The position numbers and the translations under genes were made by a program. A stretch of 64,000 bases of DNA from Streptomyces lunaelactis (lineage in GTDB: Bacteria > Actinomycetota > Actinomycetes > Streptomycetales > Streptomycetaceae), in the NCBI RefSeq assembly GCF_003054555.1, contig NZ_CP026304.1, forward strand, positions 7,006,001-7,070,000, in the 5' to 3' direction. Under the pieces are notes generated by a model. The model was not told where the DNA came from. It did no database searches and worked only from the letters and a program-made list of their open reading frames with translations. Positions 15,338-31,867 of the stretch are shown piece by piece; the stretch's first letter is position 1, and each line of letters starts with the position of its first letter.

Positions 15338-15366
15338 TTGGGAAGTGACGGTCAGGCACGGCCTAG

Positions 15367-15382
15367 GAGATTTCTGAAGATG
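15367..15382 (+). repeat. left inverted end of IS1182-type element
   Basis: GAGATTTCTGAAGATG follows CTAG. It matches the complement of 31051-31066 at 14 of 16 positions. It marks the left border of the composite insertion. Confidence 0.65.
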
Positions 15383-15392
15383 TAGTGCTGTC

Positions 15393-15878
15393 ATGATCGG
15401 CCTGTCCCTCCTCATGGGCAGTCTCGTCCTGGCCGGTGCGGTGTGCATCATGGGCATGGACGCCTCTCATCTGCCCCTGCTGTGGCTGTTCTCGGTGTGC
15501 ACCATCGCGGTCGTCGGCATCGGCGCGCTCGGCCTGCTCGCCGTGTTCGGTACGCCCGGGATGCTGTTCATCACGGTCTTCTACATCGCCATGGCGGTCC
15601 CGACGTCCGGCGCCACGGTGCCCCTTCAGGCGCTGCCCGACTTCTACCGCGTCCTCGGCGAGTTCGAGCCCCTGCGCCAGATCACCGGCGCCGTCCGCTC
15701 GATCCTCTACTACGACGCCCAGGGTGACGCCGGTCTGACCCGGGGCTGGGTGATGCTGGGCGTGGGCCTGGCGGTCGCTTGCCTCTTCGGCTTCGGCGTG
15801 ACCCGGTTCTACGACCGGAAGGGCCTGCACCGCATCCCTGCCGACGAAGAGCCGGAGCCGGTGCCCGCTCACGCATAG
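15393..15878 (+). pseudogene. YhgE/DUF3533 membrane protein, C-terminal half
   Basis: The frame encodes 161 residues with four membrane spans (for example LLMGSLVLAGAVCIMGM, VCTIAVVGIGALGLLAVF, MLFITVFYIAMAVPTSGA and LGVGLAVACLFGFGVT), plus a conserved soluble loop (VPLQALPDFYRVLGEFEPLR, then QITGAVRSILYYDAQ). This is the end of DUF3533/YhgE-type ABC-2-like proteins. No leader, promoter or N-terminal domain precedes it; 26 bases upstream is an IS end. The missing N-terminal half lies at 28575-29394, and its last residues (AISSTVL) would join directly to MIGLSLLMG here. Confidence 0.8.
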
Positions 15879-16000
15879 ACCGGCGGGTGGTTGCTAGCGG
15901 ACAGGGCGTGGGGTCTCGGCGAGGGGCTCGGCTGGTCCGTGGCAGCCCCTCCTCGTACCCCCTTTGTTGATTAATCGCGTCAGGCGGGTTGGCCGTTGAG

Positions 16001-16576
16001 CTAGCCGTTGGCTCGGGGAACGGCCGCACGCTGATCGAGCCTGCGGAGCGCCATGTCCCCCCACTGGAGGTTCTCCCGTTCGAACGACATCCCGCGCACC
16101 AGGGTGAGGTACGGGCCGATGCGCTCGGCCTCGGCGAAGTACACCTCCTCCGAGCGCCCGTCGAGCAGGCGCTGCCGGAGCTTCTCGTAGCGGGCGAGCT
16201 TGGCGGTGGCCCACTCCATGCGCTCGGTGATGGATTTCCGGACCGCCTCGATGTCGCCCGCGTCCAGGCACTGCACCTTGACCAGCAGTTCGTCGCGGAT
16301 CACGGCCGGTTTGCCCAACGGCTCTGCGGTGTAGGCGTATACGGCCTCGCGCCCGGCCTCCGTCAGGGAGAACAGTCGCTTGTTGGGGCGGCGCTCCTGC
16401 TCGACGACGCGGGCCGTGACCAGTCCTTCGGCTTCCATGCGCTCCAGCTCCCGGTAGAGCTGCTGGGGCGTCGACATCCAGAAGTTGGCGACCGTCGCGT
16501 CGAACCCCTTCGCGAGGTCGTACCCGGACGCCTCGCCCTCCAACAGTGCGGCCATCACCGCGTTCCGCAAAGCCAT
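16001..16576 (-). CDS. PadR-family transcriptional regulator
   Basis: The protein has 191 residues from the ATG at 16576 (MALRNAVMAALLEGEASGYD). The winged helix is at residues 1-90, with GYDLAKGFD, QLYRELERMEAEGL and the KRLFSLTEAGREA wing; the C-terminal helical dimerisation domain (family 4-like) follows. It is divergent from the SnoaL/oxidoreductase operon, with TGACTAGTCA in the gap, so it probably represses that operon and itself. PadR proteins usually release DNA on binding aromatic or amphipathic ligands. Confidence 0.9.
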   Translation of the reverse strand: MALRNAVMAALLEGEASGYDLAKGFDATVANFWMSTPQQLYRELERMEAEGLVTARVVEQERRPNKRLFSLTEAGREAVYAYTAEPLGKPAVIRDELLVKVQCLDAGDIEAVRKSITERMEWATAKLARYEKLRQRLLDGRSEEVYFAEAERIGPYLTLVRGMSFERENLQWGDMALRRLDQRAAVPRANG

Positions 16577-16598
16577 GGGCCACACGCTAACACTGCTG

Positions 16599-16608
16599 TG
16601 ACTAGTCA
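16599..16608. promoter_or_regulatory. palindrome, candidate PadR operator
   Basis: TGACTAGTCA is a perfect 10-bp palindrome 23 bases upstream of the padR start. A second dyad, TTCAATTTGTTGA (about 16681-16693), lies just before the SnoaL gene. Assignment to PadR is positional. Confidence 0.4.
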
Positions 16609-16709
16609 ACGAGGTGACTGATAGTTCGCCTCCATCCCATGGACAAGGCATCTTTTCCCCTCTACTCTCCACTTCACCTATTCAATTTGTTGAGTATGAG
16701 AGGTGGCTC

Positions 16710-17102
16710 ATGCACCCGTTCCGCAAGGCCGTCGAGAGCGGCGACATGGACGGCGTGGCCGCCCTGCTGGCCGACGACGTCGTCTTCACCAGCCCGGTCG
16801 CCTTCAAGCCGTACCCAGGCAAGGCGATCACCGCCGCGATCCTGCGTGGCGTGTCCCGCGTCTTCGAGGACTTCACGTACATCCGTGAGATCGCCAACCC
16901 GGACGGAGGCGACCACGCCTTCGTCTTCACCGCCACCGTCGCCGGCAAGAAGCTCCAGGGCTGCGACTTCCTGCACTTCGACGAGGACGGCAGGATCGAC
17001 GAGTTCACGGTGATGGTGCGCCCGCTCTCGGCCGCCCAGGCGCTGTCCGAGGCCATGGGCGCCCAGTTCGAGCAGATCGCACGAGAGGCCGCTGAACAGT
17101 GA
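16710..17102 (+). CDS. SnoaL-like (NTF2 fold) protein
   Basis: The ATG at 16710 with GAGAGGTGG upstream gives MHPFRKAVESGDMDGVAALL and 130 residues. The pattern ...ADDVVFTSPVAFKPYPGKAI...GCDFLHFDEDGRIDEFTVMV is typical of the SnoaL-like branch of the NTF2 fold. These are cyclases, isomerases or ligand-binding helpers. Its stop overlaps the GTG of the FAD oxidoreductase (GTGA), so they are coupled. It heads a three-gene operon controlled from the PadR intergenic region. Confidence 0.88.
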   Translation: MHPFRKAVESGDMDGVAALLADDVVFTSPVAFKPYPGKAITAAILRGVSRVFEDFTYIREIANPDGGDHAFVFTATVAGKKLQGCDFLHFDEDGRIDEFTVMVRPLSAAQALSEAMGAQFEQIAREAAEQ

Positions 17103-18592
17103 CCGCGACGACCGACTTCGACGCGGTGGTCATCGGCGCGGGCAACGCCGGACTGACCGCCGCCGCCACCCTGCAACGCGCCGGACTGCGCACCCTCCTG
17201 GTGGAGCGCCACAACATCCCCGGCGGTTGCGCGACTTCCTTCCGACGCGGCCGCTTCGAGTTCGAGACGGCGCTGCACCAGCTGTCCGGCGTCGGCATGG
17301 AGGGCCAGCAGTACACGCTGCGCTCGCTGTTCGACCGGCTGGGTGTCGCCGACTCGCTGGAGTTCGTCCAGGAGCACGACCTGTACCGCGCCGTGGTGCC
17401 CGGTCAGTACGACGTGACCCTGCCCGCCGACTGGTCCGGCGCCGTGGCCGCGCTGGAGGACGCCTTCCCCGGCAACCGCGCCCGCGTCGAACGGTTCTTC
17501 GCGCTCGTGCGGGACGTGACGTTCTGGTACATCGCCGCCCTGCGCAGGACACCGGCTGCCGACATCGACCCCGTGCTCTTCCGTCAGGCGCTGCGCCCGC
17601 TGAAGGACGTCCTGGACGAGCACTTCGACGATCCCGGCCTCAAGTCGGTCCTCGGCACGTACTGGCCGTACATCGGCCAGCCGCCCTCCCGGCTCGCGTT
17701 CCAGGAGATGGCGCTCATGCTCTATGGCTACATCGAGTTCAAGCCCTGGCACATCAGGGGCGGCTCGCAGGCCATGTCGAGCGCGCTGCTGGACTCCTTC
17801 GTCGCGGCGGGTGGCCAGGTCCGCTTCAACACGGCGGTCGAGGCGATCCTGACCGAGCGTGGCCGTGCGGTGGGCGTCCGACTCGACGATGGCCAGGAGG
17901 TGTCCGCCCGCGATGTGGTCTCCAACGCCTCGCTCCCCGTCACCTACGCGATGCTCGGCGACGACGCCGTCCCGACGGCCGTACGCGACGACCTGGCCAC
18001 CAGGCGCGTCGGCGTCTCGGCCTTCGCCCTGCACATGGGCCTCGACGCCACCCCCGCCGACCTGGGCTTCACCACCAGCACCACCTTCGTCGGCGTGGAC
18101 CTGGACGACGACCGCACCTACGCCGTCTGGCGCTCGCTGGAGCCCGCCCGCGGCATCTGCGTCTCCTCCTACGACGTCGCCCCGATCGGTTTCGCCCCGT
18201 CGGGCGCGAGCCACGTCAGCCTGCTGACGCTGCAGTACGGCGACGTCTGGGAGAAGGTCCCGCCCGCTGAGTACGCGCGCACCAAGTTCGCCTACGCCGA
18301 AACCCTGCTCGACCTGGCCGAGAGGGCCATGCCCGGTATCCGCGATGCCATCGAGGAGGTCGACGTCGCCACCCCGCTGACCGTCGCCCGCTACCTCGGC
18401 CACCCCGGCGGCGCGATCTACGGCTACGACCAGGACCGCGCCGAGAGCTGGCTGTTCCGCGACAGCGAACGAGAGACGCACGTACCCGGCCTGCACCTGG
18501 CGGGCGCCTGGGTCGGCCCCGGCGGCTTCCAGCCCACCCTCGAAGCCGGCCACCGCGTCGCCCGGCGCCTGCTGCGCACCAAGGCCGCCTGA
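17099..18592 (+). CDS. CrtI-like FAD-dependent oxidoreductase
   Basis: The protein has 497 residues and resembles the phytoene-desaturase/carotenoid-isomerase family (COG1233). The dinucleotide-binding motif VVIGAGNAGLTAAATLQRAG (residues 10-29) is followed by LLVERHNIPGGCATSF, and the C-terminal FAD contact reads GLHLAGAWVGPGGFQPTLEA. These enzymes desaturate, isomerise or saturate polyenes. No phytoene synthase or lycopene cyclase is present, so a carotenoid role is unlikely; the partner reductase and SnoaL-like protein point to another substrate. The GTG start overlaps the upstream stop. Confidence 0.85.
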   Translation: MTATTDFDAVVIGAGNAGLTAAATLQRAGLRTLLVERHNIPGGCATSFRRGRFEFETALHQLSGVGMEGQQYTLRSLFDRLGVADSLEFVQEHDLYRAVVPGQYDVTLPADWSGAVAALEDAFPGNRARVERFFALVRDVTFWYIAALRRTPAADIDPVLFRQALRPLKDVLDEHFDDPGLKSVLGTYWPYIGQPPSRLAFQEMALMLYGYIEFKPWHIRGGSQAMSSALLDSFVAAGGQVRFNTAVEAILTERGRAVGVRLDDGQEVSARDVVSNASLPVTYAMLGDDAVPTAVRDDLATRRVGVSAFALHMGLDATPADLGFTTSTTFVGVDLDDDRTYAVWRSLEPARGICVSSYDVAPIGFAPSGASHVSLLTLQYGDVWEKVPPAEYARTKFAYAETLLDLAERAMPGIRDAIEEVDVATPLTVARYLGHPGGAIYGYDQDRAESWLFRDSERETHVPGLHLAGAWVGPGGFQPTLEAGHRVARRLLRTKAA

Positions 18593-18617
18593 CCGCCCGA
18601 CCCGACAGGGAGAACCC

Positions 18618-19757
18618 GTGAAACACCCGCTCGCCCCGCTCTTCGACGGCCACGACGCCGTCCAGGCCGACATCGACAGCCGCCCCGCCGACACCACGGA
18701 CCACCTCTCCGAGGTCCGCCGCACGGTGGACACGTACCACCCCAGGCGGCTCACCCTCACGGTCACCGAGGTCATCACGGAGACCGCCACCACGAAGACC
18801 TTCCGACTGCGTCGCCCCGACGGAGCGGACCTGCCGCCCTTCCTGGCCGGCCAGTACGTGGGCGTGTTCGCGGACGGCACCAACCGCCCCTACGCCTTGT
18901 CCTCCAGCCCCGCACGCCTGGACCACTGGGACCTGACGATCCGCCGGGTCCCCGGCGGCCGGATCAGCAACCACCTGATCGACACCGTGACGCCGGGCGA
19001 CACCCTCACCACGACCGGCCCCATGGGCACCTTCCACCACAACCCGCTCTTCCACGGCGACGACGTCGTCTTCCTCGCCGGCGGCTCCGGCGTCGTCCCG
19101 GCGATGAGCATGATCCGCGACATCGTCGACCACGGACTCAACCGCCGCCTCCACCTCGTCTACGGCTCCCGCACCGACGACGACGTCATCTTCCGCGACG
19201 AACTCGACGCCCTCGCCGCAGACCACCACCCGAACATCTGCATCGACCACGTCATCGCCGAGCCCGGCCCCGGCTGGGCCGGCCCCACCGGTTTCCTGAC
19301 CTCGTCCCTCATCAAGACGCTCGCCGGACCGTTGAACGCCCGCACGGTCTACGTGTGCGGCCCGCAGGCCCTCTACCCGTACGCCCTCCAGCAGCTCCTC
19401 GACCTCGGACACCCCCGTCGTCGTATCCGCTTCGAGGCGAACGGCGCTCCCGCCGATCCCACCCGCCAGGCGCACTGGCCCGCCGACGCGGCCCCCGACG
19501 GTGAAGTCACCGTCACCGCCGCCGGACGCACCTTCCGCACCCGCAGGGACCGCCCGCTCCTGGACGCCCTGGAGGACGAGGGCATCCGTCCCGAGGCCGC
19601 CTGCCGCTCCGGCGAGTGCAGCCTGTGCCGCGTCCGCGTCCTCAAGGGCACTCTGCACACTGCCGAGGAGGCCAAGCTCCGCATGTCCGACGCCCGCTTC
19701 GGCTACACCCACTCCTGCGTCGCGTACCCGATCACCGATGTGGAGCTTGACGCGTAG
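18618..19757 (+). CDS. ferredoxin-NAD(P) reductase with C-terminal 2Fe-2S domain
   Basis: The protein has 379 residues. An FNR-type FAD domain contains RPYALSSSP, followed by the GTFHHNPLF region and the NAD-binding part (VVFLAGGSGVVPAMSMIRDI). At the end sits a plant-type ferredoxin domain with CRSGECSLC and the fourth Cys in HSCVAYP. It would pass electrons from NAD(P)H through FAD to the iron-sulfur cluster. The N-terminal ~40 residues before the FAD domain are not recognised. It lies 25 bases after the CrtI-like gene and is the likely electron supplier in this operon. The GTG start follows a CAGGGAGAACCC site. Confidence 0.9.
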   Translation: MKHPLAPLFDGHDAVQADIDSRPADTTDHLSEVRRTVDTYHPRRLTLTVTEVITETATTKTFRLRRPDGADLPPFLAGQYVGVFADGTNRPYALSSSPARLDHWDLTIRRVPGGRISNHLIDTVTPGDTLTTTGPMGTFHHNPLFHGDDVVFLAGGSGVVPAMSMIRDIVDHGLNRRLHLVYGSRTDDDVIFRDELDALAADHHPNICIDHVIAEPGPGWAGPTGFLTSSLIKTLAGPLNARTVYVCGPQALYPYALQQLLDLGHPRRRIRFEANGAPADPTRQAHWPADAAPDGEVTVTAAGRTFRTRRDRPLLDALEDEGIRPEAACRSGECSLCRVRVLKGTLHTAEEAKLRMSDARFGYTHSCVAYPITDVELDA

Positions 19758-19829
19758 ACCGCCGCTTCCTGCCCGGGGGCGGGCGGCTCGGGAACCCGCC
19801 CCCGATGCGGAACGACGCGTGAACACCGT

Positions 19830-20242
19830 CTGATCGATCTCAGCGAGGCCGGATCCGCACAGCGTGTGGGCCCGCGTCGGCCTGGTGCCGCAGGACTACA
19901 CCCGCTGGTCCATGGACTTGCGCGCCAACATCCACCTCGGCCAGCCCCGCACCGAAGACGACGCCCAACTGGTGGACGCGGCGAAGGCGGCCGGCGCGGA
20001 CAGCGTCATCGCGAAGGTCCCCCACGGCCTCGACACCCTGGTCGCCAGCTCGAACTGGGGCGGCACCGACCTGTCCGGCGGGCAGTGGCAGAGAATCGCG
20101 GTAGCCAGAGCGTTCTACAGGGAGGCTGCCATGCTGATGCTGGATGAGGCGACGTCCGCGATGGACCCGCGCGCCGAGCACCTGGTGATCCGCAGCTTCA
20201 AGGAGCTCGCCGCGAGCAAGGCCGCCGTGTTCGTCGGAGCGC
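19830..20242 (+). pseudogene. fragment of an ABC exporter ATPase
   Basis: The text runs from LIDLSEA through VWARVGLVPQDYTRW, the signature LSGGQWQRIAVARAFYR and Walker B MLMLDEATSAMDPRAEH to AAVFV, where similarity stops. This is the last third of a fused permease-ATPase exporter. One extra G in GCCGGATCCG (about 19850) shifts the frame. Walker A and the membrane domain are absent, and the H-loop is cut off. It is a remnant in the composite insertion. Confidence 0.8.
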
Positions 20243-20404
20243 GCGGATCTCACTGACCGGCCCCTGAACCTGGTCACACAGCTTGACCAGGTCAGAGGTC
20301 GAACGGCAGGACTCGGCCCGACGCAGCTGCTTCCTGGCGGCGAGCAGATGGAGCGTGGCCATCGCCAGCTCGTGCGACACATCGATCGCTGCATCTCCGC
20401 TGGC

Positions 20405-20795
20405 GTCGCGGTCCACCGCGCCCTCCGGCAGGTCCGCGTTCGCGTACACCGCCTTGCGCCAGTGCGGCGGCACCAGCTTCTCGTCGACCTCGCGCGGCAG
20501 CAGCGGCTTCTCCGACACCTTCCGCCGGGAGAGCGCCGGGAGCCGCTTCACCCCGGTCAGGATGCGCATCCCGCCGGTCGCCGCATCCAGCGCCTTCGGC
20601 TCGCCCAACAGAGACAGGAACGGCTTGACGGTGTTGTAGCGCAGCGCCAGCGCACCCCGCAACGCGGTCTCCGCCGTGCTGTCGTCCTCCGCCACCAGGC
20701 TCACCACCATGGCGGGCGCGCTGGAGAGCGCTGCCCGGGGCGCGACCTCCTCCAGCGCCCGCCACAGCGCCGCAACGTCCCCAAGGCCGTTTATG
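20405..20795 (-). pseudogene. Tn3-family transposase fragment
   Basis: On the minus strand the frame reads LGDVAALWRALEEVAPRAAL, ..., LRYNTVKPFLSLLGEPKALD, ..., PREVDEKLVPPHWRKAVYAN. This matches the central part of Tn3-type transposases. It is followed by unrelated helical sequence (DVSHELAMATLHLLAARKQL) up to about 20285. The catalytic DDE part is missing. Confidence 0.6.
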
Positions 20796-20915
20796 CAGGC
20801 ATGAGCTGCTTACTGTATCCGCCGGAACAGCAGGCCATTGAAGCTGTCGATCCGAGCGTTGTCGGGGAAGTACGGCTCTTAGAAGTCGAATGCCATCTGC
20901 GCGTTCAGGCGGAGG

Positions 20916-21535
20916 TCAGGTGAGGCACACGCGGTCAGGTGACTGTCCGGCGAGGTACTCGGAGCGTTCTTTCGCGGTGAGATCTCGGCCGACGGCCTGG
21001 CAGATCCTTCTGATTGCTGCGGTCTCGTCAGGCATGTCTGCATTCCACAGCCGCACCGTGCCGTCTTCGCTGGCGGTGGCGACGGTGTGGCCATCGGGGC
21101 TGAACGCCACCGAATACACGGTGCCTGTGTGGCCGGTGAGGATGGTGCGGGTGCGGCCGGTCTTGGTGTCCCACAGCCGCACCGTTCTGTCGTCGCCGGC
21201 GGTGGCGAGAGTGTGCCCGTCGGGGCTGAACGCCACCGAATACACGGTGTCCTTGTGGCCGGTGAGGCGGCGGTGGAGGGGGAGTTCTGCTGCCGCATAG
21301 AGGCTGGCGGTGGCTTCGTTGGTGGCTCTGGTCCGGTAGGCGTGGACGGCCAGTAGGGAAGCCAGGTCGGGGTTGGTGTCGATGAGCGCGTCGGACTGGG
21401 CGGCGAGTTGCTTGGACAGCCCCTGTTGCTGGGCGGCGAGTGCGGTTTCGCGTTGCCGGTAGGCCACTGAGGCGGCGGCCATGGCAAGGACGAGCAGGAT
21501 CGTGAGGGCTGTGGTGAAGGCGTGTCTTCTCCGAA
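20916..21535 (-). pseudogene. C-terminal remnant of an nSTAND/WD40 protein
   Basis: One transmembrane helix ([21 protein letters not shown]) is followed by a coiled linker ([20 protein letters not shown]), a segment of [17 protein letters not shown], and two WD repeats ([20 protein letters not shown] and [20 protein letters not shown]). The tail ([20 protein letters not shown]) is the natural end of the family. Intact members have an XRE or peptidase domain, an nSTAND NTPase and many more WD repeats, so the NTPase half and most propeller blades are lost. The frame is interrupted upstream at about 21535. Confidence 0.75.
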
Positions 21536-22337
21536 CAGGCGGCCTGGCTGGCGCCGTCGCGCTGGGCTATCGCCGCGGAGAGCGTGACACTCGATCTCGG
21601 ACAGCTGCTCGGTCCGATGGACAAAATGGCCACTGACCCTCTGTGGGATCACACGCTCAGTCAGTGGCTGACCGACACGGGCGTACTTCTCGGCACGTCG
21701 ATGGTCTGCTACGTGCTCACGATCCGATTCCTACGGCGCCAGGAGCCGGAGGTCGTGCGAGAAACGTGAGACAGCAATTAGTCCAGGGCTTTGCGGACCG
21801 CGGACAGGCGAGCAGCGACAGCGACGGAACGGTCAGCGTGAGCGGAACCAGCCCCTTGGCCACCCCCAGGATCGGCAGACAGTTGGCCGCCATCGGCAGG
21901 GTCGCCCGCAGCAGAACGATCAGACCCGAAACGTCGACGAGCGACGGAGCGGAGCCATCCACCGCGACGGGAGGCGCGGGCATGGCGACTCCAGGGGACG
22001 TTGTGCGGGAGCTGGCATGCCTTCCGCACTCGCGTACGTATCCGTGTTTCAGGGCTACGGATAGCTGATTGCCGGTGCGCTCTCTAGGGTCGCTGGGCAG
22101 GAAAGGCCGCCTGCCGAGTGTGTGGGTCGAGCGACGAAGTGCCCGTGCATGTGAGCCGTACGCGGAAGCCCTCAACGGGCCACATCTCGGCTCGGCGTGG
22201 GCATTGGTCATCCCTCGCCCGTGGCCAGTGGTCGTGACCGTGGCGGGCGGGCGGGCGCGATCGGGGTAACGGGGCTTCGGCCGCGATTTGACCATAGTGG
22301 CGTCAACCAATCACAGACAGAAGGAAGGGCTTTCGCG
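21536..22337. other. gene-poor stretch upstream of the protease
   Basis: No convincing complete gene is visible. A 50-residue frame from the ATG at 21617 (MDKMATDPLWDHTLSQWL) ends in a membrane-like segment (GVLLGTSMVCYVLTIRFL) and could be a broken gene's end. A minus-strand frame around 21780-21985 encodes a hydrophobic text (LIVLLRATLPMAANCLPILG) with no family I know. The DNA between looks like decayed coding sequence. Confidence 0.35.
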
Positions 22338-23387
22338 ATGGGCAAACACAGGAGGACTTCCGCCTTGGGCAGACACAGAAAACCTTCCGCGAAGGGCCGC
22401 CCAGGACTGGCATCCGCCACGGCGGGAGGGCTGCTGTATGGTGCGCTGTTCGTCTCCGGCGCGTCGGCAGTTGAACAACCTAGCGATGCACAGTCCACCA
22501 GCACGGAGGACATACAGCCGGGCACCACCGAGCAGCCGTCTGGGGATGCGGAGTCCGGAACAGAAGACTGGCAGCCCACCGAGGACTCTGAAGCCGCGCA
22601 GGTGAACGAGGTCGACGAGGAACCGGATTTCCAGATCACCGAAGGCACCGACACAGCCCAACCGGACCCGGCAGAACAGCCCGAAGAAGGGCAGTCCGGC
22701 GGAGAGGGGCAGCAGCCGTCTAGCGAAGTACCGCCCGGCACGGATGACCAGGAGCCAGTCGACGAAGCACAGCCCAGCACGGAGGACCTGACCCTCCCCC
22801 GCGGCGCCAAAATCATCCCAAGGGAGAACTTCGACAAGGAAATACAAGGATTCTGCACAGCCGGAATCCACGTCACCGATGGGCAGGACAACGGATTCCT
22901 GACCGCAGGACACTGCAAGACGGATGACGTCTGGGTTGATGAGGATCGCCGGGAGATCGGCAAGACCCAAAGGCTCGGAGACGGCGATACCGACTGGAGC
23001 TTTGTGGAAACCGATCGCGGACCCGGCCCCAAGGATCGATTCTCCGGGGTCGGCTTGCCCTATGTCGGTCGGGAGGTCTGCAAGTCCGGCGCGAAGACCG
23101 GAGAGCAAAGGTGCGGCAAGATCACCAAGACCGACGAGACGATCCCTTACGACGATGGAACCTCCGTGCGTGACCTCATCGTCACCGACATCGAGTCCCA
23201 CGGGGGAGACAGCGGCGGACCGCTCTACGACAAGAACCATCCCGAGATAGCCATTGGAACGCTCAGCGGTGGAAACGGCGACATGAAAGCGGCGAACGAG
23301 CCGTACCTGAGCTATTACGTTCCCGCCATCGACGTGATGGTAAAGGAAGGCTTCACCCTGCCGCGTGCTCCGGAAACCGGTCCGTGA
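22338..23387 (+). CDS. secreted trypsin-like serine protease (S1) with acidic pro-region
   Basis: The ATG at 22338 has GAAGGAAGGG upstream and gives 349 residues. A basic N-terminus (GKHRRTSALGRHRKPSAKGR) and hydrophobic GGLLYGALFVSGASA form a signal peptide. About 110 low-complexity residues follow, rich in Glu, Asp, Gln, Pro and Thr, with repeated STED-type blocks. The protease domain then has all catalytic motifs: His in FLTAGHCK, Asp in GDTDWSFVE and Ser in HGGDSGGPLY, with two probable disulfides (C...GHC and CKSGAKTGEQRC). It resembles the streptogrisin/alpha-lytic group but lacks their usual pro-domain. It stands alone within the composite insertion. Confidence 0.88.
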   Translation: MGKHRRTSALGRHRKPSAKGRPGLASATAGGLLYGALFVSGASAVEQPSDAQSTSTEDIQPGTTEQPSGDAESGTEDWQPTEDSEAAQVNEVDEEPDFQITEGTDTAQPDPAEQPEEGQSGGEGQQPSSEVPPGTDDQEPVDEAQPSTEDLTLPRGAKIIPRENFDKEIQGFCTAGIHVTDGQDNGFLTAGHCKTDDVWVDEDRREIGKTQRLGDGDTDWSFVETDRGPGPKDRFSGVGLPYVGREVCKSGAKTGEQRCGKITKTDETIPYDDGTSVRDLIVTDIESHGGDSGGPLYDKNHPEIAIGTLSGGNGDMKAANEPYLSYYVPAIDVMVKEGFTLPRAPETGP

Positions 23388-23639
23388 CCCTCTCGTGCCA
23401 GGGCTCTGCCGACGACGTGCGCACGCGTTCAGAACATACGTCTTCGGCAGAAGCTGCCACTGGTCAGCCGGGGTTCGGCAGTGCGGCGAGCCGGACCGGG
23501 GCGTCAGTGGTCATCGGTCCAGGGTCCGTGTGACGCGCTGCTTTCCATGCGGCGGCGAGGAACGATCGTGTCCCTTGTGGTGGTGTAGGGGATCAATCCT
23601 CGGTGGTTTTCTGGGAGTTGGTGAGTGCGCGGGTGGTGA

Positions 23640-23890
23640 GGTCGTGAGCGTCCTGCGCGACGTCGTCGGCGCGGAGGCGGCCAGCGAGCGCGGTTGCCCG
23701 GGCCCGTTCTCCGTCTTCGCGGCCGAGAGCGACCGGGTGGTACCGCGCGCGTCCGCGCAGGGCGCCTTCCCCGACTGCGCGGCCCTGCCCGGCGATCACT
23801 TCAGCGTCGTGCAGCCCCGCTCCCGCGAGGACACCGCGTATGTGACGCTGAGCCACCTGCTGCGGGAGGAGGTGAGCGGCAGTGATCCAC
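23640..23890 (+). pseudogene. C-terminal fragment of an alpha/beta-hydrolase
   Basis: The text GPFSVFAAESDRVVPRASAQ, then AFPDCAALPGDHFSVVQPRS and EDTAYVTLSHLL, is the C-terminal end of an alpha/beta-hydrolase, with the acid residue in ESDRVV and the catalytic His in GDHFSVV. The nucleophile elbow is missing and the frame runs out into unrelated sequence. The opposite strand also has coding-like bias near 23593-23700 (...LTTRALTNSQKTTED), so two decayed genes may overlap here. Confidence 0.45.
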
Positions 23891-24042
23891 CGGGCGTGCC
23901 GCCCGTGACGGTGCCGCGTGCTACGCATCGGCCGTGGGACACGCGTCGTCACCGTGTCGTTGCTCCGCGTAATCGAAAGCGGAGAGCCGGAGTGCAACGG
24001 TGCCACGCCGGACACTGCACGCCGTCGTGACCCCGCCGCGCT

Positions 24043-24076
24043 CGAACCCCCGCCGGAGCAAACCGGCGGGGGTTCG
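24043..24076. terminator. strong GC hairpin
   Basis: CGAACCCCCGCCG (24043-24055) pairs with CGGCGGGGGTTCG (24064-24076) across an 8-base loop. A 13-bp stem of this composition is a standard Streptomyces terminator. No intact gene now ends just upstream, so it belonged to a lost gene. Confidence 0.6.
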
Positions 24077-24199
24077 TCGTCTCACGCGCTCTCACACAGG
24101 TCTCACAAACTGTGCGGACTCCCCCGGACCGTTAGCCCTGACCTGGCACTAAGCACCTGCCCTGGAGCAGCTGGACGCCTCGGGACGCTCGCTACGACC

Positions 24200-24482
24200 T
24201 GTGCCATGTAGTACCGAGGGAGGGTCCCAAGATCAGGACCGGTGCGTCTTCTGGCCCGTCAAGGCGGTATTGCAGGGTCTCATCCGTCGTCTCACTCACC
24301 CGCTCACGCTCCCACATCTCACAATTTCTCACGGGAGGGGGTCGGGAGAGCTCGCCAGACCTCCCCATGTATCCGCCGCCGGACGAAGGTCCTCCACGTT
24401 CGGTTTCACATACCAGCGCTTCGTGGTCTTGACGTTGGTGTGCCCCGCCCACAGGGCAAGGAGGTGATCCGGCACCCCGTTG
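24200..24482 (-). repeat. copy of the integrase-tail/pcaL-head junction
   Basis: Read on the minus strand, this stretch matches 57857-58138 almost throughout, with roughly 15 differences and one inserted base. It contains the end of a tyrosine integrase (GVPDHLLALWAGHTNVKTTK, then RWYVKP) and the first ~30 codons of pcaL (ETLQYRLDGPEDAPVLILGP). It breaks off at ATGGCACA, exactly where similarity to the pcaL copy ends. The one-base insertion gives the integrase tail a different ending. Confidence 0.8.
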
Positions 24483-24485
24483 AGC

Positions 24486-24945
24486 GACGCGTACCGGTAT
24501 CCGACCGGCCTCGCCTCCGGGCAGCCGCTCCGCTCCGCCGCCTTCCGGTGGTTCCTGGTCGGCCAGTCGATCTCCATGGCTGGCAGCGCCATGGCGCCTG
24601 TCGCCCTGGCCTTCGGTGTCCTGGAGGTCACCGAAAGCGCGGCCTGGCTGTCCGCCGTCACCACTGCGGCGTTGGTCCCGATGGTCGCGACGCTTCTCCT
24701 CGGCGGCGGTATCGCCGACCACTACCGGCGCGACACCGTCCTGTTCCTTACCAGCCTGGGCGCCGGCCTCACCCAGGCCGGCGTCGCGTTCGTGCTCCTG
24801 GCTCATCAGCACCCGGTGTTCCTGCTGCCGCTGGCTGCCCTCAACGGCGTCTTTCAGGGCCTGACCAAGCCCGCGTTGCGCGGCATCGTCTCGAATCTGG
24901 CCGCGGGACGCGGCCTCCAGCAGGCTAGTTCCGTACTTCGCGAGT
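24486..24945 (+). pseudogene. N-terminal fragment of an MFS transporter
   Basis: The text PLRSAAFRWFLVGQSISMAG through HYRRDTVLFLTSLGAGLTQA to KPALRGIVSNLAAGRGLQQA is the first third of an MFS_3-type (EntS-like) exporter, with four membrane spans and the cytoplasmic HYRRD loop. Similarity ends near GLQQASSVL. The rest of the frame is unrelated and runs into a response-regulator remnant. No start codon with a binding site is visible. Confidence 0.75.
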
Positions 24946-25033
24946 CACCCGATCGTGAAGATCGATCGATCATGACCGCCCCTGCGGCGACCCGAATCGG
25001 TGACGTGCGAAGTACAAAGCTAGGGTGTGCGGC

Positions 25034-25706
25034 GTGCGAGTGCTGTTGGTCGAGGACGACGACAATCTGCGATTCGGGATCGCCGCCGCACTGCGTGCCC
25101 GCCGGACTCGCCGTCGACGCGGCCGCCGACCTGCCGCAGGCCGACGAGGCGCTGTTCGTCACCGCGTACGACTGCGCCGTCTTCGACCGGATGCTCCCGT
25201 CCGGGGACGCCGCCACCTACGTGGAGACGATGCGCCGGGGCGGCCGGGAGGTCCCGGTGCTCTTCCTCACCGCCCGCGACTCTGTCGCCGACCGGGTCGA
25301 GGGCTTCGCGAGCGGCGGTGACGACTACCTGATCAAGCCGTTCGCCGTCCCGGAGCTGGTCGCCCGGGTACGCAGTCTGTGCCGGCGCTCCGCGGTCGTC
25401 CGCCCGCCCGTCCATCAGGTCGGCGAGCTGGAGATCGACACCGCCCGCCGGCGCGTGCACCGCGCCGGTGTGCTGCTCACCCTGACGAGCCGGGAGTTCG
25501 CGGTCCTGGAAATGCTAGCCACACGCGCCGATCAGGCCGTTTCCCGCTCGGAGTTGCTGGAGAGCTGCTGGGACGAGATGGCCGAGCCACAGTCGAACGT
25601 CCTGGACGTCCTCATCTCCCAGCTCCGCCGCAAGCTGGGCGAGCCGCCGCTCATCCACACCGTCCGGGGCGTCGGCTACCGCCTCGCCGCGGACGGCTCT
25701 CCGTGA
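25034..25706 (+). pseudogene. OmpR-family response regulator with frameshift
   Basis: It starts VRVLLVEDDDNLRFGIAAAL at the GTG at 25034. After that the frame breaks near 25098, where CTGCGTGCCC carries one extra base. The other frame continues AGLAVDAAADLPQADEALFV with the phospho-Asp in CAVFDRMLPSGD, Lys in DDYLIKPF and a complete winged-helix (LTSREFAVLEMLATRADQAV, ending IHTVRGVGYRLA). The downstream kinase gene begins at an overlapping GTG (25703) but is cut after about 14 codons. One base repair would restore the regulator; the kinase is lost. Confidence 0.85.
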
Positions 25707-25929
25707 GCCGGCGGCGGGCGGCGGGTTCCGCGTTGCGGGCGTACTGCCGTACGGGCCTCAGGGGCCCCACGCGCGGGACCAGCAGTTGGGGTCCGGGCGG
25801 CCCGAGGAGACCCTCGTCGATGCGGGGGACAACTTTCGGGAGCAGAACGCCCGGGCACTGCTCGGCGACGGTGGAGCAGTCATCGACTGGTCCGGTCCGC
25901 CGCTGAGGCAGAAGGAATTCGACAACGTA

Positions 25930-26307
25930 ATGGGACACAAACACACGAAGGGCATTGCGATCGGGTGCGGCATCTCACTGTTGATCACAGTGGGACTTGT
26001 GGCGGCGGCTTTCGTGGGGCTCGCCATGCTGGTGGACGAGGCCCGCAAGGACCTGATCGAACCGTCGGTCTACAACTCGGTGAAGGCCGGCGACGCCGAG
26101 GCAGAGGTGCGGGACAAACTGCCGGACGGGGACTCGTTCTTCACCGAGGGCCTGGACGACAAGGGGTCCGGTAAGCCGACGGGCGCGGAGTGCCTCTCCC
26201 TCATGTCGACGGAGGACATGGACGACCAGGGCAGGGATCACGTCTTCCGCTTCTGTTTCAAGGACGGGAAGCTGATCGAGAAGCGGTCCTACTGGATTGT
26301 GACGTAG
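25930..26307 (+). CDS. small membrane-anchored protein, 125 aa
   Basis: From the ATG at 25930 (MGHKHTKGIAIGCGISLLIT) the protein has one N-terminal membrane helix (residues 8-33) and an outer domain with SVYNSVKAGDAEAEVRDKLP. That part recalls the SmpA/BamE-like or PepSY-type small folds that begin with a lipoprotein or membrane anchor, but similarity is only a general pattern. Two Cys (in GAECLS and FRFCFK) may pair. Upstream is GAAGGA at a long spacing. Function is unknown; the gene looks intact, unlike its neighbours. Confidence 0.65.
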   Translation: MGHKHTKGIAIGCGISLLITVGLVAAAFVGLAMLVDEARKDLIEPSVYNSVKAGDAEAEVRDKLPDGDSFFTEGLDDKGSGKPTGAECLSLMSTEDMDDQGRDHVFRFCFKDGKLIEKRSYWIVT

Positions 26308-26329
26308 TCGGCTTCCGCCAGCGGCCCGC

Positions 26330-27166
26330 GCAGGGCGCGTCACCGTCCTGCCGAGCGTGGAGTCGCACGTCTCGCCGAGCACGGTCAACCGGAAGCTCGC
26401 CGCGGTCTCCGCCTTCTATCAGCATCAGTCCCGGCACGGGGAGGATATCGGTGAGCTGCTGACCACCTGGCAGACCGGCGGGCGGGGCGGCTGGAAGCCG
26501 TTCCTGCACCACATCACCAAGGGCACGCCGCATGCCGGGCGGGCCATCGTGCTGAAGGCGCCGAAGAAACTGCCCCGGGTCCTGGCCGCTGGCGAGGTCC
26601 AGGCGATCCTGGACGCCTGCACCCGCCTGCGGGACCGGTTCCTGTTCGCCCTGCTCTACGACACCGGCATCCGGATCGGCGAGGCTCTGGGGCTGCGGCA
26701 CGAGGACATCGCCGCCGCGAAGTCGGAGGTCACCGTCGTTCCCCGGCTGAACGCCAACCGGGCCCGCAGCAAGTCCCAGCGGCGCCGGTCCATCCCCGTC
26801 AGCGCCTCGCTGATCCGCCTCTACGGCGACTACATGCACAGCGAGTACGGCGACCTCGACTCCGACTACGTGTTCGTGAACCTCTTCGCCGAACCGCGCG
26901 GCCAGGCTCTTTCCTACCCGGCGGTCTACGGCCTTGTGAAACGGATACGGCGCCGCACCGGACTCGACTTCGACCCGCACTGGTGCCGGCATTCGGCAGC
27001 CACCCGGATGCTCCGCGACGGCATCCCGATCGAGACCGTGTCCCTGCTGCTCGGGCACAGCTCGGTGACTGTGACGCTGTCGGTCTACGGCCACCTCACC
27101 GCCGCCGATGCCCGCAAGGCCATGGAAGCCGCAGGCTGGTTCACCGGGAACGAGGTGACCTGGTGA
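26330..27166 (+). pseudogene. tyrosine recombinase, N-terminally truncated
   Basis: The core-binding end (TVNRKLAAVSAFYQHQSRHG) and complete catalytic domain are present: Arg in YDTGIRIGEALGLR, His-x-x-Arg in HWCRHSAATRML, His in LLLGHSS and the nucleophile Tyr in LSVYGHLT. Readable similarity begins near 26330 (VTVLPSVESHVS), and roughly 60 N-terminal residues of the family are missing. It resembles the first of the paired recombinases of Tn554-like systems in actinomycetes. Its TGA overlaps the GTG of a second recombinase (27163), in the usual coupled arrangement. A GTG at 26357 could still give a shortened protein. Confidence 0.75.
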
Positions 27167-27600
27167 CCGGCGAACACGCCCAGCAGAACCATGGGTTGGG
27201 GACAACGGGGGCGCCCCGGGGGTTGCGGGAGAAGCTGCTGGCGGCGACCCGGCCCGAGTTCCGCGGTGACGAGATCGTCTTCCCCGTTGACGACCCGGTC
27301 TTCGGCTCCTCATCACTGTGCTAGGTGTCCAGCTGCCCGCGCGGCGCGCACTCCCGGGGGCTCTGCACGGCCCACCACACCCGCTGGATCTACATCGGGC
27401 GGCCCGACCTGGAACAGTTCACAGCGACCGCTGTCCCGATTGGGCATACAGAGCCCGGGGATACCTGCGCGGTCGCCGACTGCTCCTTCGCCACCTTCCA
27501 TCCTGCAGCTGCGTCCCAGGTAGCTGCACGGGAACAGGGGCGACTCCGGGTGGTCCGCCTCATCGATTTTGCCGGGCGCTCGACCCAACGCTATCTTTAT
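27163..27600 (+). pseudogene. second recombinase, N-terminal fragment with in-frame TAG
   Basis: The GTG at 27163 starts VTGEHAQQNHGLGTTGAPRG and reaches FGSSSLC, where an in-frame TAG (27321-27323) interrupts. The same frame continues SSCPRGAHSRGLCTAHHTRW, a zinc-ribbon-like C-x4-C-...-GLC-x2-HH pattern seen at the N-terminus of TnpB-type recombinases. It stops being recognisable by about 27590. The catalytic domain is absent. Confidence 0.6.
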
Positions 27601-27603
27601 AGT

Positions 27604-27629
27604 CAACAATGCACATAGGTGCGTAGTTG
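27604..27629. promoter_or_regulatory. imperfect palindrome in the SGNH gene promoter
   Basis: CAACAATGCAC (27604-27614), ATAG, and GTGCGTAGTTG (27619-27629) form an 11-bp dyad with two mismatches. A possible -10 box, TATAGT (27598-27603), directly precedes it, so a bound repressor would block the start site. The half TAGTCAAC also occurs near the padR palindrome at 16602-16609. Confidence 0.35.
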
Positions 27630-27686
27630 TCGATCAGTGGTCGGTGGCCACTGCCACCAGCAGCGTTGACGGAAGGCGGTCGGGCC

Positions 27687-28493
27687 GTGTCAGGCAGTGC
27701 GTATCTGCGCTACGTCGCCCTGGGCGACAGTCAGACAGAGGGTCTCGGGGACGGCGACGATGTCCGTGGTCTGCGGGGATGGGCGGACCGGCTCGCCGAG
27801 CAGGTCGCCCGTCACAGTCCCGGCCTGCGCTATGCCAACCTCGCCGTGCGCGGTCGTAAGGCCGGTCAGGTGCGTGCCGAGCAGCTCGCCCCGGCTCTGG
27901 CGATGCGGCCTGACCTGGCCACCGTGGTGGCCGGGGTCAATGACGTGCTGCGTCCGAGCGTCGATCTCGACGAGGTGGTCGGCCACCTGGAGGCGATGTT
28001 CGCCGCTCTCACCGCGCAGGGTGCCACGGTCGCGACGCTCATGTTTCCCGACGTGGGGCGCATCACGCCGTTGGCCCGCCCGGTCGGGCGCAGGGTGCTT
28101 GCGCTCAACGAGCGCATCCGGGAGGCCGCCGGGCGCTACGACGTGGTGGTGGCGGAGACGGCCGCGCACCCGGTGGCGACCGATCCGCGGTTGTGGAGTG
28201 CCGACCGGTTGCATGCCGGCCCGCTAGGGCACGCCCGCATCGCGGCCGCCGTCGCCCAGTCGCTCGGCCTGCCTGACAGCGACGACAGCTGGACCCGGCC
28301 CCTGCCAGTCGACGGGGCCCGGGCTTCGGCCCTGCGGGTCGTGGGCGCCGAACTGCGTTGGGCCGGCACCTTCCTCGGCCCCTGGCTCGGCCGTCGCCTG
28401 CGCGGCCGCTCCTCCGGTGACGGCCGCCAGGCCAAACGGCCCACCCTGCTTCCGGTGGCCTCGTCCACCGGGTATACCTCCCCAGCCGTGTGA
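27687..28493 (+). CDS. SGNH/GDSL-type hydrolase
   Basis: The GTG at 27687 with GGAAGG upstream gives 268 residues. Block I is GDSQTEG (nucleophile Ser at about residue 14; Gln replaces the common Leu). Gly is in LAVRGRKAGQ, Asn in VAGVNDVLRP, and the catalytic Asp/His in SADRLHAGPLGHARIA. There is no signal peptide; about 70 basic, proline-rich residues follow the domain. These enzymes hydrolyse esters of lipids, sugars or polymers. It precedes the yhgE N-terminal half by 81 bases in the same direction and may have formed one operon with it. Confidence 0.9.
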   Translation: MSGSAYLRYVALGDSQTEGLGDGDDVRGLRGWADRLAEQVARHSPGLRYANLAVRGRKAGQVRAEQLAPALAMRPDLATVVAGVNDVLRPSVDLDEVVGHLEAMFAALTAQGATVATLMFPDVGRITPLARPVGRRVLALNERIREAAGRYDVVVAETAAHPVATDPRLWSADRLHAGPLGHARIAAAVAQSLGLPDSDDSWTRPLPVDGARASALRVVGAELRWAGTFLGPWLGRRLRGRSSGDGRQAKRPTLLPVASSTGYTSPAV

Positions 28494-28574
28494 GTCAGCA
28501 GTGTGAGGCACCGGCCCGCGACGACGTCGACGGCTCCTCCCGCTGTGCCCCTCTTCTACTTACCGGAGTTGGAA

Positions 28575-29394
28575 ATGAGTAATGTCCACCCCTTCCGCGT
28601 TCTGCGCGCGAAGCGTCTGTGGATCGTCAACGGCATGGTCGTGGGCTTCGTGGCCCTGCTGTTCGCGGTGTTCTACGTCGGCGCCAACATCGACCCCGCC
28701 GGTCACCTGCACAAGCTGCCCGTCGGCCTGGTCAGCGCCGACAAGGGGGTGAATGCCGGCGGCAAACAGACCGACCTCGGCGCGCAGATCGTCCAGTCGA
28801 TCAAGAAGTCGTCCCAGGGCGAGGACAAGATCGACTGGAGGGTGATGGACGAGAAGGAGATGAAGGAGGAGCTCAGCAAGGGCAAGCTGTTCGGCGCGCT
28901 CGTCGTCCCCAGCGACTTCACCTCCTCCGTCGCCGCACTCGCCGGCACCGAGGCGTCGGGCGACGCCGTCCGCCCGACGCTCACCGTGCTTACCAACCAG
29001 TCCGCCGGCAGCGTGGGTTCGAGCATGGCGCGGCAGGCGGCGACGACGGCGGCACAGTCGGCCTCCGCGCAGGTGGGCAAGCAGCTGACCACTCAGGCCA
29101 AGGCCACGCAAGCCGAACTGCCCGCCGCCACACTCCTGCTGCTGGCCGATCCCGCCGAGGTGCAGATCGAGGACGGGCATCCGCTCGACTCGCACAGCGG
29201 CCTGGGCCTGAGCGCCTTCTACTACTCGCTCGTCCTCGTCGTCTGCGGCATGCTCGCCGCCAACGTCATCAGCGGCCAGGTGGACCACGCTCTCGGCTAC
29301 ACCCACAACGACATGGGCCCGCTGCGGATCCACAACCCGCTGCTGCGGGCGACCCGCGTGCAGACTCTCGCCATCAGCAGCACCGTTCTGGCCC
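28575..29394 (+). pseudogene. YhgE/DUF3533 membrane protein, N-terminal half
   Basis: It starts MSNVHPFRVLRAKRLWIVNG at the ATG at 28575. There is one span (VVGFVALLFAVFYVGA), the outer domain of ~190 residues (GALVVPSDFTSSVAALAGTE, LTVLTNQSAGSVGSSMARQA) and the first spans of the C-terminal membrane block (FYYSLVLVVCGMLAANVI). The family text ends at RVQTLAISSTVL, after which the frame enters the IS1182 body. The complement at 15393-15878 supplies the rest. YhgE-type proteins serve in export or as phage receptors in other bacteria; the function here is unknown and the gene is broken. Confidence 0.85.
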
Positions 29395-29427
29395 GGGATC
29401 ATGTGGTCCGGGGCCAGAGTTGTAGGC

Positions 29428-31007
29428 ATGTTGGGGCGGCGGCCGAAGGAGCCGGTCGGGCCTGATGTGTGGGCCACGTGCCGGGAGTTGATTCCGTCCG
29501 GGAGCGTGTTCGCGTTCCTGGCCGAGCACCGGGATGCATTGTTCCCGGAGGAGATGTTCGCTGATCTGTATCCGTCGGCGAACGGGCGGCCGTCGGTGCC
29601 GCCGCAGGTGCTGGCCTGTGCGACGGTGTTACAGGTGCTGGAGAACCGCACGGATCATGACGCGGTGGCCGAGTTGCGGTGTGACCTGCGGTGGAAGGCA
29701 GCCTGTGGGCTGGGCCTGTATGACACGGGGTTCGATCCGTCGCTGTTCATCTACTTCCGGCGCCGCCTGGCCATATCCGGTGACCGGGACCGGATCTTCA
29801 GCCGGGTGAGGGAGATCATCAACGAGACCGGTGTGCTGAAGGGACGGCGCCGGCGGGCACTTGACTCGACGGTGTTCGAGGACGCGGTGGCCACCCAGGA
29901 CACCGTCACCCAGCTGATCGCCGCGATCCGCCGGGTGATCCGCCAGGTGCCCGGTGCGGCCGAGGTCGCCGCCGTCCAGTGCACCGCGCACGACTACCGC
30001 GATCCGGGCAAGCCCCGGATCGCCTGGGACGACGAAGCGGCCCGTGACGTGCTGGTGGATGCCCTGGTGTCCGATGCGCTGCGGCTGCTGGGCCATCTGC
30101 CCGAACAGGACCTGGGTGAGCAGGCCGCGGACGCGGTGGGCATCCTGGCCCTGGTGGCGGGGCAGGATGTGGAGCTCGCCGAGGACTCCGATGGCACCGA
30201 CGGCCGCTGGCGCATCGCCCGCAAGACCGCCGAGGGCCGCATCGTCTCCACCGTCGACCCCGAGGCGAGGCACATCCACAAGACCCGCCATCAGCGCACC
30301 GACGGCTACAAAGGCCACATCGCGCTGGAGCCGGAGACCGGCCTGTTCACCGCCGTCGCCCTGCGGCGTGGTGACGGTGCGGACAACCATGAGGCTGCCG
30401 TCGCCGACGACCTGCTCGCCGACGAGGAAGGGGCGCTGACGGTGCTGGGCGATACCGCCTATGGCACCGGCGAGGCCCGCAGCCATCTGGCCGCCGCGGG
30501 GCACACCCCCGTCGTCAAGCCCCCGCCGCTGCGGCCGGCCGTTCCCGGTGGCTTCACCCTGGACGACTTCCGCATCGACACAACGGCCGGGGCAGTGACC
30601 TGCCGGCCGGGCACACCGTGCCGCTGACTCCCGAGTCCGGCCGCCGCCGGCAACGACGTGCCTACTTCAACCAGTTATGCACCGGCTGCCCGTTGCGCGG
30701 GCGGTGCACCAAGGGCAAGGCCGGGCGGATCGTGACCATCCGTCCCCACCACGACGCGCAGGCCAACGCCCGACACCAGGCCGCCACCGACCCCGCCTGG
30801 CAGAACGAATACCGCCACTGGCGCCCCCTCGTCGAACGCGGCATAGCCTGGCTCACCCGCCACAGCCGCAGACTCCGCTACCGCGGCACCCTGAAGAACG
30901 ACGCCTGGCTCCACCACCGGGCCGCCGCCCTCAACCTCCGCCGACTGATCAACCTCGGACTCCACGTCACCCACGGCACCTGGACGATCAAGCCCGGAAC
31001 CACATAG
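29428..31007 (+). pseudogene. IS1182-family transposase with frameshift
   Basis: The start MLGRRPKEPVGPDVWATCRE is typical of Streptomyces IS1182 transposases. The N-terminal half (NRTDHDAVAELRCDLRWKAA), the DDE elements ALDSTVFEDAVA and HKTRHQRTDGYKGHIALEPE, and the C-terminal end (RHSRRLRYRGTLKNDAWLHH) are all present. One missing C in TGCCGGCCGGGC (about 30603) shifts the frame, so the final ~130 codons are in another frame from 30618. The right inverted end follows at 31051-31066. The element should not transpose on its own. Confidence 0.9.
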
Positions 31008-31050
31008 CCAGAGGTGCCGTCCGCCCTGCACCCAGACAGCCCCACACAAA

Positions 31051-31066
31051 GATCTTCAGAAGTCTC
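31051..31066 (-). repeat. right inverted end of IS1182-type element
   Basis: The minus strand reads GAGACTTCTGAAGATC. It is followed directly by CTAG (31067-31070), which also supplies the TAG stop codon of allR. Confidence 0.7.
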
Positions 31067-31867
31067 CTAGGCCTGGGCCGCCGTGCTGGCCAGCGCCGCC
31101 GAGAGGTCCCGGGCGACCTCCTGGAGGATCGGGACGATCTTCTCCGTGGCCTCCTCGGTGACCCGGCCCGCCGGGCCGGAGATCGAGACCGCCGCCGCCG
31201 TCGGGGAGTTGGGCACCGAGACCGCCAGGCAGCGGACCCCGATCTCCTGCTCGTTGTCGTCGACCGCGTAGCCCGCGCGCCGCACCTGTTCCAGTGCGTC
31301 GAGGAAGCCCTCGGGCGTCGTGATCGTCTTCTCGGTGGCGGCCGGCATGCCGGTCCGGGCGAGCAGGGCCCGTACCTCCTCCGGCGGGGTGTGCGCGAGC
31401 AGCGCCTTGCCCACGCCCGTGGAGTGCGGCAGCACCCGCCGGCCGACCTCGGTGAACATCCGCATGGAGTGCTTGGACGGCACCTGAGCGACGTACACGA
31501 TCTCGTCACCGTCGAGCAGCGCCATGTTCGCCGTCTCGCCGGTCTCCTCGACCAGGCGGGCGAGGTACGGGCGGGCCCAGGTGCCGAGCAGCCGCGATGC
31601 GGACTCGCCCAGCCGGATCAGACGGGGGCCGAGCGCGTAGCGACGGTTGGACTGCTGGCGTACGTAGCCGCAGGCCACGAGGGTGCGCATGAGGCGGTGG
31701 ATCGTGGGCAGCGGCAGGCCGCTGCTGGCGGAGAGCTCACTCAGCCCGACCTCGCCACCGGCGTCGGCCATTCTCTCGAGCAGGTCGAATGCGCGCTCCA
31801 GGGACTGCACGCCACCGCTGGGAGCGGTCTTGGCGGTGTCGGTGGTGCTGGCGCTGGACGTCGGCAC
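31067..31867 (-). CDS. allR: IclR-family regulator of allantoin catabolism
   Basis: The protein has 266 residues from a GTG with AAAGGA upstream. The winged helix is at residues 18-80 (SLERAFDLLERMADAGGEVG, then LSELSASSGLPLPTIHRLMR), and the IclR effector domain follows (MALLDGDEIVYVAQVPSKHS, then GKALLAHTPPEEVRAL and SGPAGRVTEEA). It is divergent from allB and alc and matches AllR, the repressor that releases DNA in response to allantoate or glyoxylate. Its TAG stop is part of the CTAG target of the inserted element, so the protein is intact, but its presumed terminator now lies 15.7 kb away at 15293-15337. Confidence 0.9.
   Translation of the reverse strand: MPTSSASTTDTAKTAPSGGVQSLERAFDLLERMADAGGEVGLSELSASSGLPLPTIHRLMRTLVACGYVRQQSNRRYALGPRLIRLGESASRLLGTWARPYLARLVEETGETANMALLDGDEIVYVAQVPSKHSMRMFTEVGRRVLPHSTGVGKALLAHTPPEEVRALLARTGMPAATEKTITTPEGFLDALEQVRRAGYAVDDNEQEIGVRCLAVSVPNSPTAAAVSISGPAGRVTEEATEKIVPILQEVARDLSAALASTAAQA

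Follow-up and report, generated by a model that had tools for sequence, protein, structure and literature searches.

How can the two halves of one gene come to lie in permuted order at opposite ends of a 14-kb segment, and how can that segment come to sit inside an insertion sequence (IS)? This question is raised by a stretch of Streptomyces lunaelactis DNA (G000:C1:7006001-7070000; 64,000 nucleotides, hereafter the window; genome of 8.57 Mb in 3 contigs), in which the C-terminal half of a yhgE (DUF3533) gene follows the left end of an IS1182 element and the N-terminal half precedes the remainder of that element. An earlier note on this DNA proposed either that an IS had captured a circle broken open within yhgE, or that a duplication had been followed by a deletion. 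The analysis supports the first of these: the segment is quite probably the excised circle of a genomic island that belongs at the 5′ end of the pcaDC gene, fused to an IS1182 already in the chromosome through one conservative exchange that did not take place at attP, the attachment (att) site of the circle. What the circle probably was, and pcaDC as its usual site, are additions to that note. The features that carry the argument are the following.

15363..15388, plus strand: left end of the IS1182 (CTAG flank and left terminal repeat), severed from the body; found by pattern search and by alignment to locus L009 and other relatives
15389..29383, plus strand: inserted segment of 13,995 bp, read as one unit of a circle broken within yhgE; its ends can be placed within a range of up to 3 bp
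15391..15878, plus strand: C-terminal half of yhgE/DUF3533
28575..29383, plus strand: N-terminal half of yhgE/DUF3533
29384..31070, plus strand: remainder of the IS1182, with leader hairpin, transposase in two frames (29401-30627 and 30618-31007) and right terminal repeat

Of the 380 positions of the DUF3533 profile, the N-terminal half of yhgE covers 1-237 and the C-terminal half 248-378. Both halves match the corresponding YhgE N- and C-terminal models, the C-terminal half below the cut-off (36 versus 102 bits). In three relatives (L065, L066 and L067), one whole gene matches both halves, with amino-acid identities of 84-86% for the N-terminal half and 93% for the C-terminal half. The profile and these intact genes confirm that the halves are on the plus strand, permuted and abutting, as had been claimed, and an origin from two yhgE paralogues is ruled out. 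Aligned by blastn, window position 29383 corresponds to position 13490 of L065 and window position 15391 to position 13493, leaving two bases between the halves. The earlier note had the left side of this joint read AISSTVL; the halves do abut there, but the final L is already IS sequence. Closing the segment restores a 432-codon frame, which is the length of the intact L065 protein, and the proposal that circularising about 14 kb would give back one gene was therefore borne out, the unit being 13,995 bp under every equivalent placement of the joint. The uninterrupted locus that had been predicted in related genomes was also found: the order is SGNH-yhgE-PadR in L065, L066 and L067; SnoaL comes next only in L065 and L067, being displaced in L066. 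The two halves are accordingly read as a single gene that was cut in two with nothing lost and whose parts now stand in permuted order. A diverged YhgE paralogue in the same genome (C1:637680-638456, 48% identical to the N-terminal half) lies far from both halves, and the genome showed no other, close copy of the yhgE locus.

The IS gave an equally simple picture. Its inverted termini, 15363-15381 on the plus strand and 31052-31070 on the minus strand, are the sole matches that the window gives when up to 3 mismatches are allowed, and none occurred in 100 shuffles. The outer borders thus carry IS1182-type terminal inverted repeats with CTAG flanks, as the earlier note had seen; the outer bases beside CTAG vary among relatives. 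The left remnant is 26 bp long (at most 29 bp under equivalent placements of the joint); that length had been estimated correctly, but not the position, which is 15363-15388. The closest relative of the IS is L009 in genome G218, a 3′-truncated copy that is 90% identical over 835 bp of the 5′ half only. Its left end runs straight into the leader and the transposase start, matching window positions 15363-15388 and then 29384 onward, and the 26-bp end and the leader are likewise contiguous in other IS copies aligned across the junctions. The leader from CTAG to the transposase start measures 68 nt in L009 and 70 nt in the rejoined IS of the window, which is 1,713 bp long with both CTAGs counted. 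The end motif was present at 45 of the 74 transposase loci scanned, a number that includes repeat copies and places fetched twice, with a CTAG-to-start distance of 67-74 nt; at the remaining 29, no end motif could be recognised within 200 nt. Because the leaders of relatives read through and the leader lengths agree, the two pieces are taken to be a single IS, split with no base missing. A composite transposon with an IS copy at each end was considered and rejected, the 26 bp on the left and the body on the right making up one IS.

The best transposase model was that of the IS1182 family (NF033551), to which the first fragment alone scored 231 bits against a cut-off of 270, and the second frame carries a C-terminal DDE domain. 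The transposase is not one intact frame but two overlapping frames, while in four relatives it spans 544-564 codons from stop to stop. The change of frame at 30600-30627 could be a lost base or a sequencing error. The exact IS-leader pattern had no match in the genome contigs or in the viral contigs searched, and a scan seeded with the protein gave 53 loci, all at 77% identity or less.

At the left joint the sequence reads AGTGC-TG-TCATG and at the right joint AGCAC-CG-TTCTGG. The corresponding place in close yhgE relatives is AGCAC, two bases and TCATG (more distant relatives differ), and that in the L009 IS is AGTGCCGTTCTGG. About 2 bp are common to both parents at the crossover. The IS leader, yhgE and the att core described below showed no greater mutual similarity than shuffled sequence, and for this reason an integrase acting at a pseudo-att site in yhgE or in the IS was rejected. 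Together, the joints are best described as the product of a single conservative crossover in which a circle and the IS leader shared about 2 bp.

The nature of the circle is indicated by features in the middle of the segment and by their counterparts elsewhere in the window.

24063..24196, no strand assigned: distal end of a pcaDC-site island, joined to the att core; edge class as in 12 of 29 fetched loci
24197..24322, no strand assigned: 126-bp att core (5′ end of pcaDC), forming with its neighbours an attP arrangement
24323..24482, minus strand: C-terminal remnant of the tyrosine integrase of the att site; 70% protein identity to the full integrase of L226, with one stop inside the alignment
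57749..57990, plus strand: integrase relic beside pcaDC, an attL-type relic on the same chromosome
58016..58141, plus strand: the other copy of the att core, forming the start of pcaDC, presumed attB gene

Positions 24197-24482 are 95% identical, in inverted orientation, to 57857-58141 of the same genome, and the two core copies are 34 kb apart. The latter stretch holds the C-terminal relic of an integrase and the start of a gene recognised by the NCBIfam model for bifunctional PcaDC (569 bits, cut-off 390). A search with 23560-24500 gave matches in 161 of 246 genomes at E ≤1e-15, many of them starting exactly at 24197; this is not a count of islands, because a match to the core alone is just the start of the pcaDC gene. 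Twenty-nine att-core loci, the best-scoring ones and not a random sample, were fetched from other genomes. The core is bordered by the pcaDC body in 14 of them and by the distal end in 12 (from 12 genomes), while three had no usable core, one of these (L227) showing the distal end but just 25 bp of core. At the protein level, 13 of the 14 body-class loci have the integrase C-terminus on the opposite side of the core, though four of these match over no more than 19-32 residues, and a full-length tyrosine integrase stands beside the core in L226. Four islands could be read with both ends (G124, G144, G234 and G117). Each has two direct copies of the core, one per edge class, 12.5-26.3 kb apart and identical at 117-124 of 126 positions. 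On this evidence, islands appear to occupy the 5′ end of pcaDC in other Streptomyces genomes; no description of it as an island site was found in the literature searched, as judged by titles and the starts of abstracts. Further pairs of core matches within one genome were listed, up to about 68 kb apart.

The segment has the att core and the conserved distal end of a pcaDC-site island, and its integrase is not intact. At 24196|24197, its edge belongs with the distal-end class and not with the pcaDC-body class, and the integrase C-terminus follows on the other side of the core. Read from the sequence, a distal-class edge together with the integrase C-terminus is the product of excision (attP) and also that of two islands in tandem. 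Among the 12 distal-class loci, four clearly have the integrase C-terminus (L224, L229, L235 and L237), and L233 has it over 17 residues only. The segment itself does not lie between direct core repeats at pcaDC; it sits in the IS, about 29-43 kb away. A circle would be the simplest source, because the attP-type joint occurs in the same 13,995-bp unit whose other side brings the yhgE halves together. The capture of a circle opened in yhgE, as suggested in the earlier note, is thus supported by the read-through of the IS and of yhgE, and the attP-type joint adds an independent mark of circularity.

Four things are legible in the sequence itself: the IS and yhgE were split without loss, the segment has an attP arrangement, pcaDC carries the att core, and the flanking genes are neighbours in relatives. 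Beyond them, we infer a free physical molecule, its excision by the cognate integrase, and end joining at breaks in both molecules. The 5′ end of pcaDC would have been the usual home of the island, and in circular form the island would have had its distal end, the att core and its integrase end joined as attP, and a whole yhgE. Next, the circle would have been broken within yhgE and inserted into the IS leader where the leader hairpin has its foot, the exchange using about 2 bp of shared sequence and leaving both sides without any loss or gain of bases. End joining would be the likeliest route for this exchange, and it fits because two molecules were joined conservatively with almost no homology; a Ku gene is present in the genome and was counted in its favour. 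In Streptomyces ambofaciens, passages of PMC5869714 report that break repair gave insertions of 30 bp to 18.8 kb and that half of the central-site scars had 1-6 nt of microhomology.

Several points weigh against this explanation. The scars in S. ambofaciens mostly had deletions, among clones screened for marker loss (passages of PMC5869714), and both joints here are clean, which counts somewhat against it. The joints are known from the assembled sequence alone, and the same event was not seen in a second genome in these searches. The segment holds only a C-terminal remnant of the integrase, and the genome showed no intact close copy of the island enzyme; excision must therefore have relied on a helper or on a time when the integrase was still intact. 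At E 1e-4, no relative of this integrase appeared in any of the four islands whose two ends were read. Finally, the order of distal end, core and integrase is also found in L224, L229, L235 and L237, and some of these may be tandem islands.

Because such loci may be tandem islands, a tandem array is a possible source too: the unit could have been cut from a head-to-tail array, either two islands at pcaDC or an amplified unit, and moved to the IS as a linear piece without any free circle. The four loci just named have joints of the same kind, and amplified units of 14.2-32.8 kb occurred in S. ambofaciens survivors of induced breaks (passages of PMC5869714). A linear piece, though, requires two separate breaks at the same place in two yhgE copies, where a circle requires one, and no tandem copy remains in this genome; we regard this source as rather unlikely. 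The duplication and later deletion offered in the earlier note is unlikely for the same reason, because yhgE would have to break twice, independently, at one and the same place. About equally improbable is the joining of circle and IS by a site-specific recombinase, for example an off-target serine recombinase, at a 2-bp GT crossover. The exchange is conservative and reciprocal with GT common to both parents, a 2-bp crossover is used by serine integrases (passages of PMC12924846), and the genome has two genes with a PF07508 domain; both of these lie outside the window, and the absence of similarity among leader, yhgE and att core above that of shuffled sequence speaks against such an enzyme.

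A homologous cointegrate, in which an IS on the circle recombined with a chromosomal IS and one copy then decayed, would recall the staphylococcal 11.7-kb plasmid TnSha2, which is generally flanked by IS1272 where it is integrated (passages of PMC4923244). It is hardly credible here: the left remnant stops where the body starts, yhgE is joined to the interior of the IS and not to its end, and no IS base is missing or doubled, so that the joints already contradict it. A chimeric join made during assembly is very improbable as well. The broken transposase frame near 30620 could be a sequencing error, but the contig is 8.4 Mb long in a genome of 3 contigs with an estimated completeness of 100%, and the two joints agree to the base.

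With the excised circle as the preferred explanation, the place of entry deserves attention. In the L009 leader, the crossover place is at most 3 nt from the 5′ foot of the hairpin (z-score -1.81; 10 of 200 shuffles fold equally well). This position was noticed post hoc and may be due to chance. IS1272, which belongs to the IS1182 family, reportedly targets hairpins with blunt-end deletions (passages of PMC4923244). It is conceivable, if quite doubtful, that IS1182-family transposases cut their own leader at the foot of its conserved hairpin and that the opened IS takes up free circles such as excised islands. If so, a large transposable unit would arise, with the passenger inside the leader and both terminal repeats retained.

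Parts of this arrangement have parallels in known systems. Remnants of actinomycete integrative and conjugative elements (AICEs) in Streptomyces have a partial integrase and direct repeats (passages of PMC9513070). The segment resembles such decayed integrative elements in its partial integrase, cargo genes, direct-repeat att sites and accretion at one gene, and differs in that the unit lies outside its att repeats, in circular order and inside an IS. The end-joining insertions of S. ambofaciens are similar in size, with inserts of up to 18.8 kb at breaks and with microhomology; they arose at laboratory breaks, usually with deletions, and the passages on them in PMC5869714 do not describe whole-circle inserts. 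TnSha2 with IS1272 is likewise a circular replicon integrated at an IS1182-family element, but that plasmid generally lies between two IS1272 copies, whereas here a single IS is split internally (passages of PMC4923244).

Excised island circles are usually known just from polymerase chain reaction products or from att sites. In mycobacteriophage BPs, with its integration-dependent immunity, a gene is reportedly whole in the circle and broken on integration; there the break is made at attP by the integrase, and here it lies outside attP. The present locus seems to preserve one circle whole, opened away from att, with both parent molecules traceable nearly to the base. It would be a rare sequence record of an excised island circle inserted away from its usual site, and it suggests a route by which islands may settle off attB even without a working integrase. 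The terminal repeats of the IS would gain a 14-kb passenger, and the locus suggests that, in Streptomyces, islands settle at the 5′ end of pcaDC.

The remaining contents of the unit comprise a block common to relatives (SGNH, yhgE, PadR and SnoaL), a pair of oxidoreductase genes and a decayed part.

16001..16672, minus strand: PadR-type regulator, next after yhgE in three relatives too
16710..17102, plus strand: SnoaL-like protein, after PadR in L065 and L067, displaced in L066
17099..18592, plus strand: FAD-dependent oxidoreductase, phytoene-desaturase-like, below the model cut-off
18618..19757, plus strand: flavin/NAD-binding reductase with 2Fe-2S domain
26357..27166, plus strand: tnpA of a tnpA/tnpB/tnpC-like set, 5′-truncated, about 99 codons missing
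27163..27618, plus strand: fragments of tnpB, decayed
27687..28493, plus strand: SGNH/GDSL-type hydrolase, before yhgE in three relatives too

The stretch 17110-19752 is matched in G073 at 81%, and the genes for the FAD-dependent and 2Fe-2S reductases are matched together in other genomes. The decayed part holds ABC and WD40 fragments, a trypsin-like protein, an MFS fragment, a response regulator, the truncated tnpA with the tnpB fragments, the integrase remnant, and a piece annotated as Tn3 transposase in plasmid matches. The WD40-repeat gene fragment at 20785-21529 is 90-91% identical to a repeat-rich region elsewhere on this chromosome, G000:C1:8209568-8211813. A plasmid origin of the segment was rejected, since 13 plasmid records match but none covers 80% of it, the best covering 5%; phage records had no match to 23400-24700. 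The genes at 26357-27618 are the decayed tnpA and tnpB of a three-gene tyrosine-recombinase set; plasmid NZ_CP108735 (L119) is annotated with a set consisting of two recombinases and a DUF6262 protein. A Tn554-type insertion was also considered, the GATGTA in the left end of the IS being presumably like the Tn554 core, and was rejected: tnpA lacks about 99 codons, tnpB is fragmented, and the leaders of relatives vary at GATGTA.

On its right side, the IS ends in an IclR-type gene (31067-31867). Because the CTAG flank of the IS at 31067-31070 includes the stop codon of this gene, the frame and the stop codon are intact. The gene was found in 194 of the 199 genomes searched. Thirty of its loci were fetched, the window's own included, and both flanks of the IS were matched in 23 of them, so that left and right flanks adjoin in relatives, with neither IS nor island within the matched stretches. 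Of those 23, 13 match window positions 12.7-14.1 kb and 10 match 9.3-10.2 kb only. A pair of SnoaL-like and TetR genes (14.16-15.29 kb) adjoins the IS on the left and has matches elsewhere, not at the IclR-type loci. Near pcaDC, a minus-strand open reading frame (56408-57580) adjoins the integrase relic; its repeats are presumably collagen-like, and those at 54.1-56.1 kb we take to be IPT/TIG-like. An inverted repeat at 15293-15337, seen as a self-match between the TetR-type gene and the IS, is probably a terminator.

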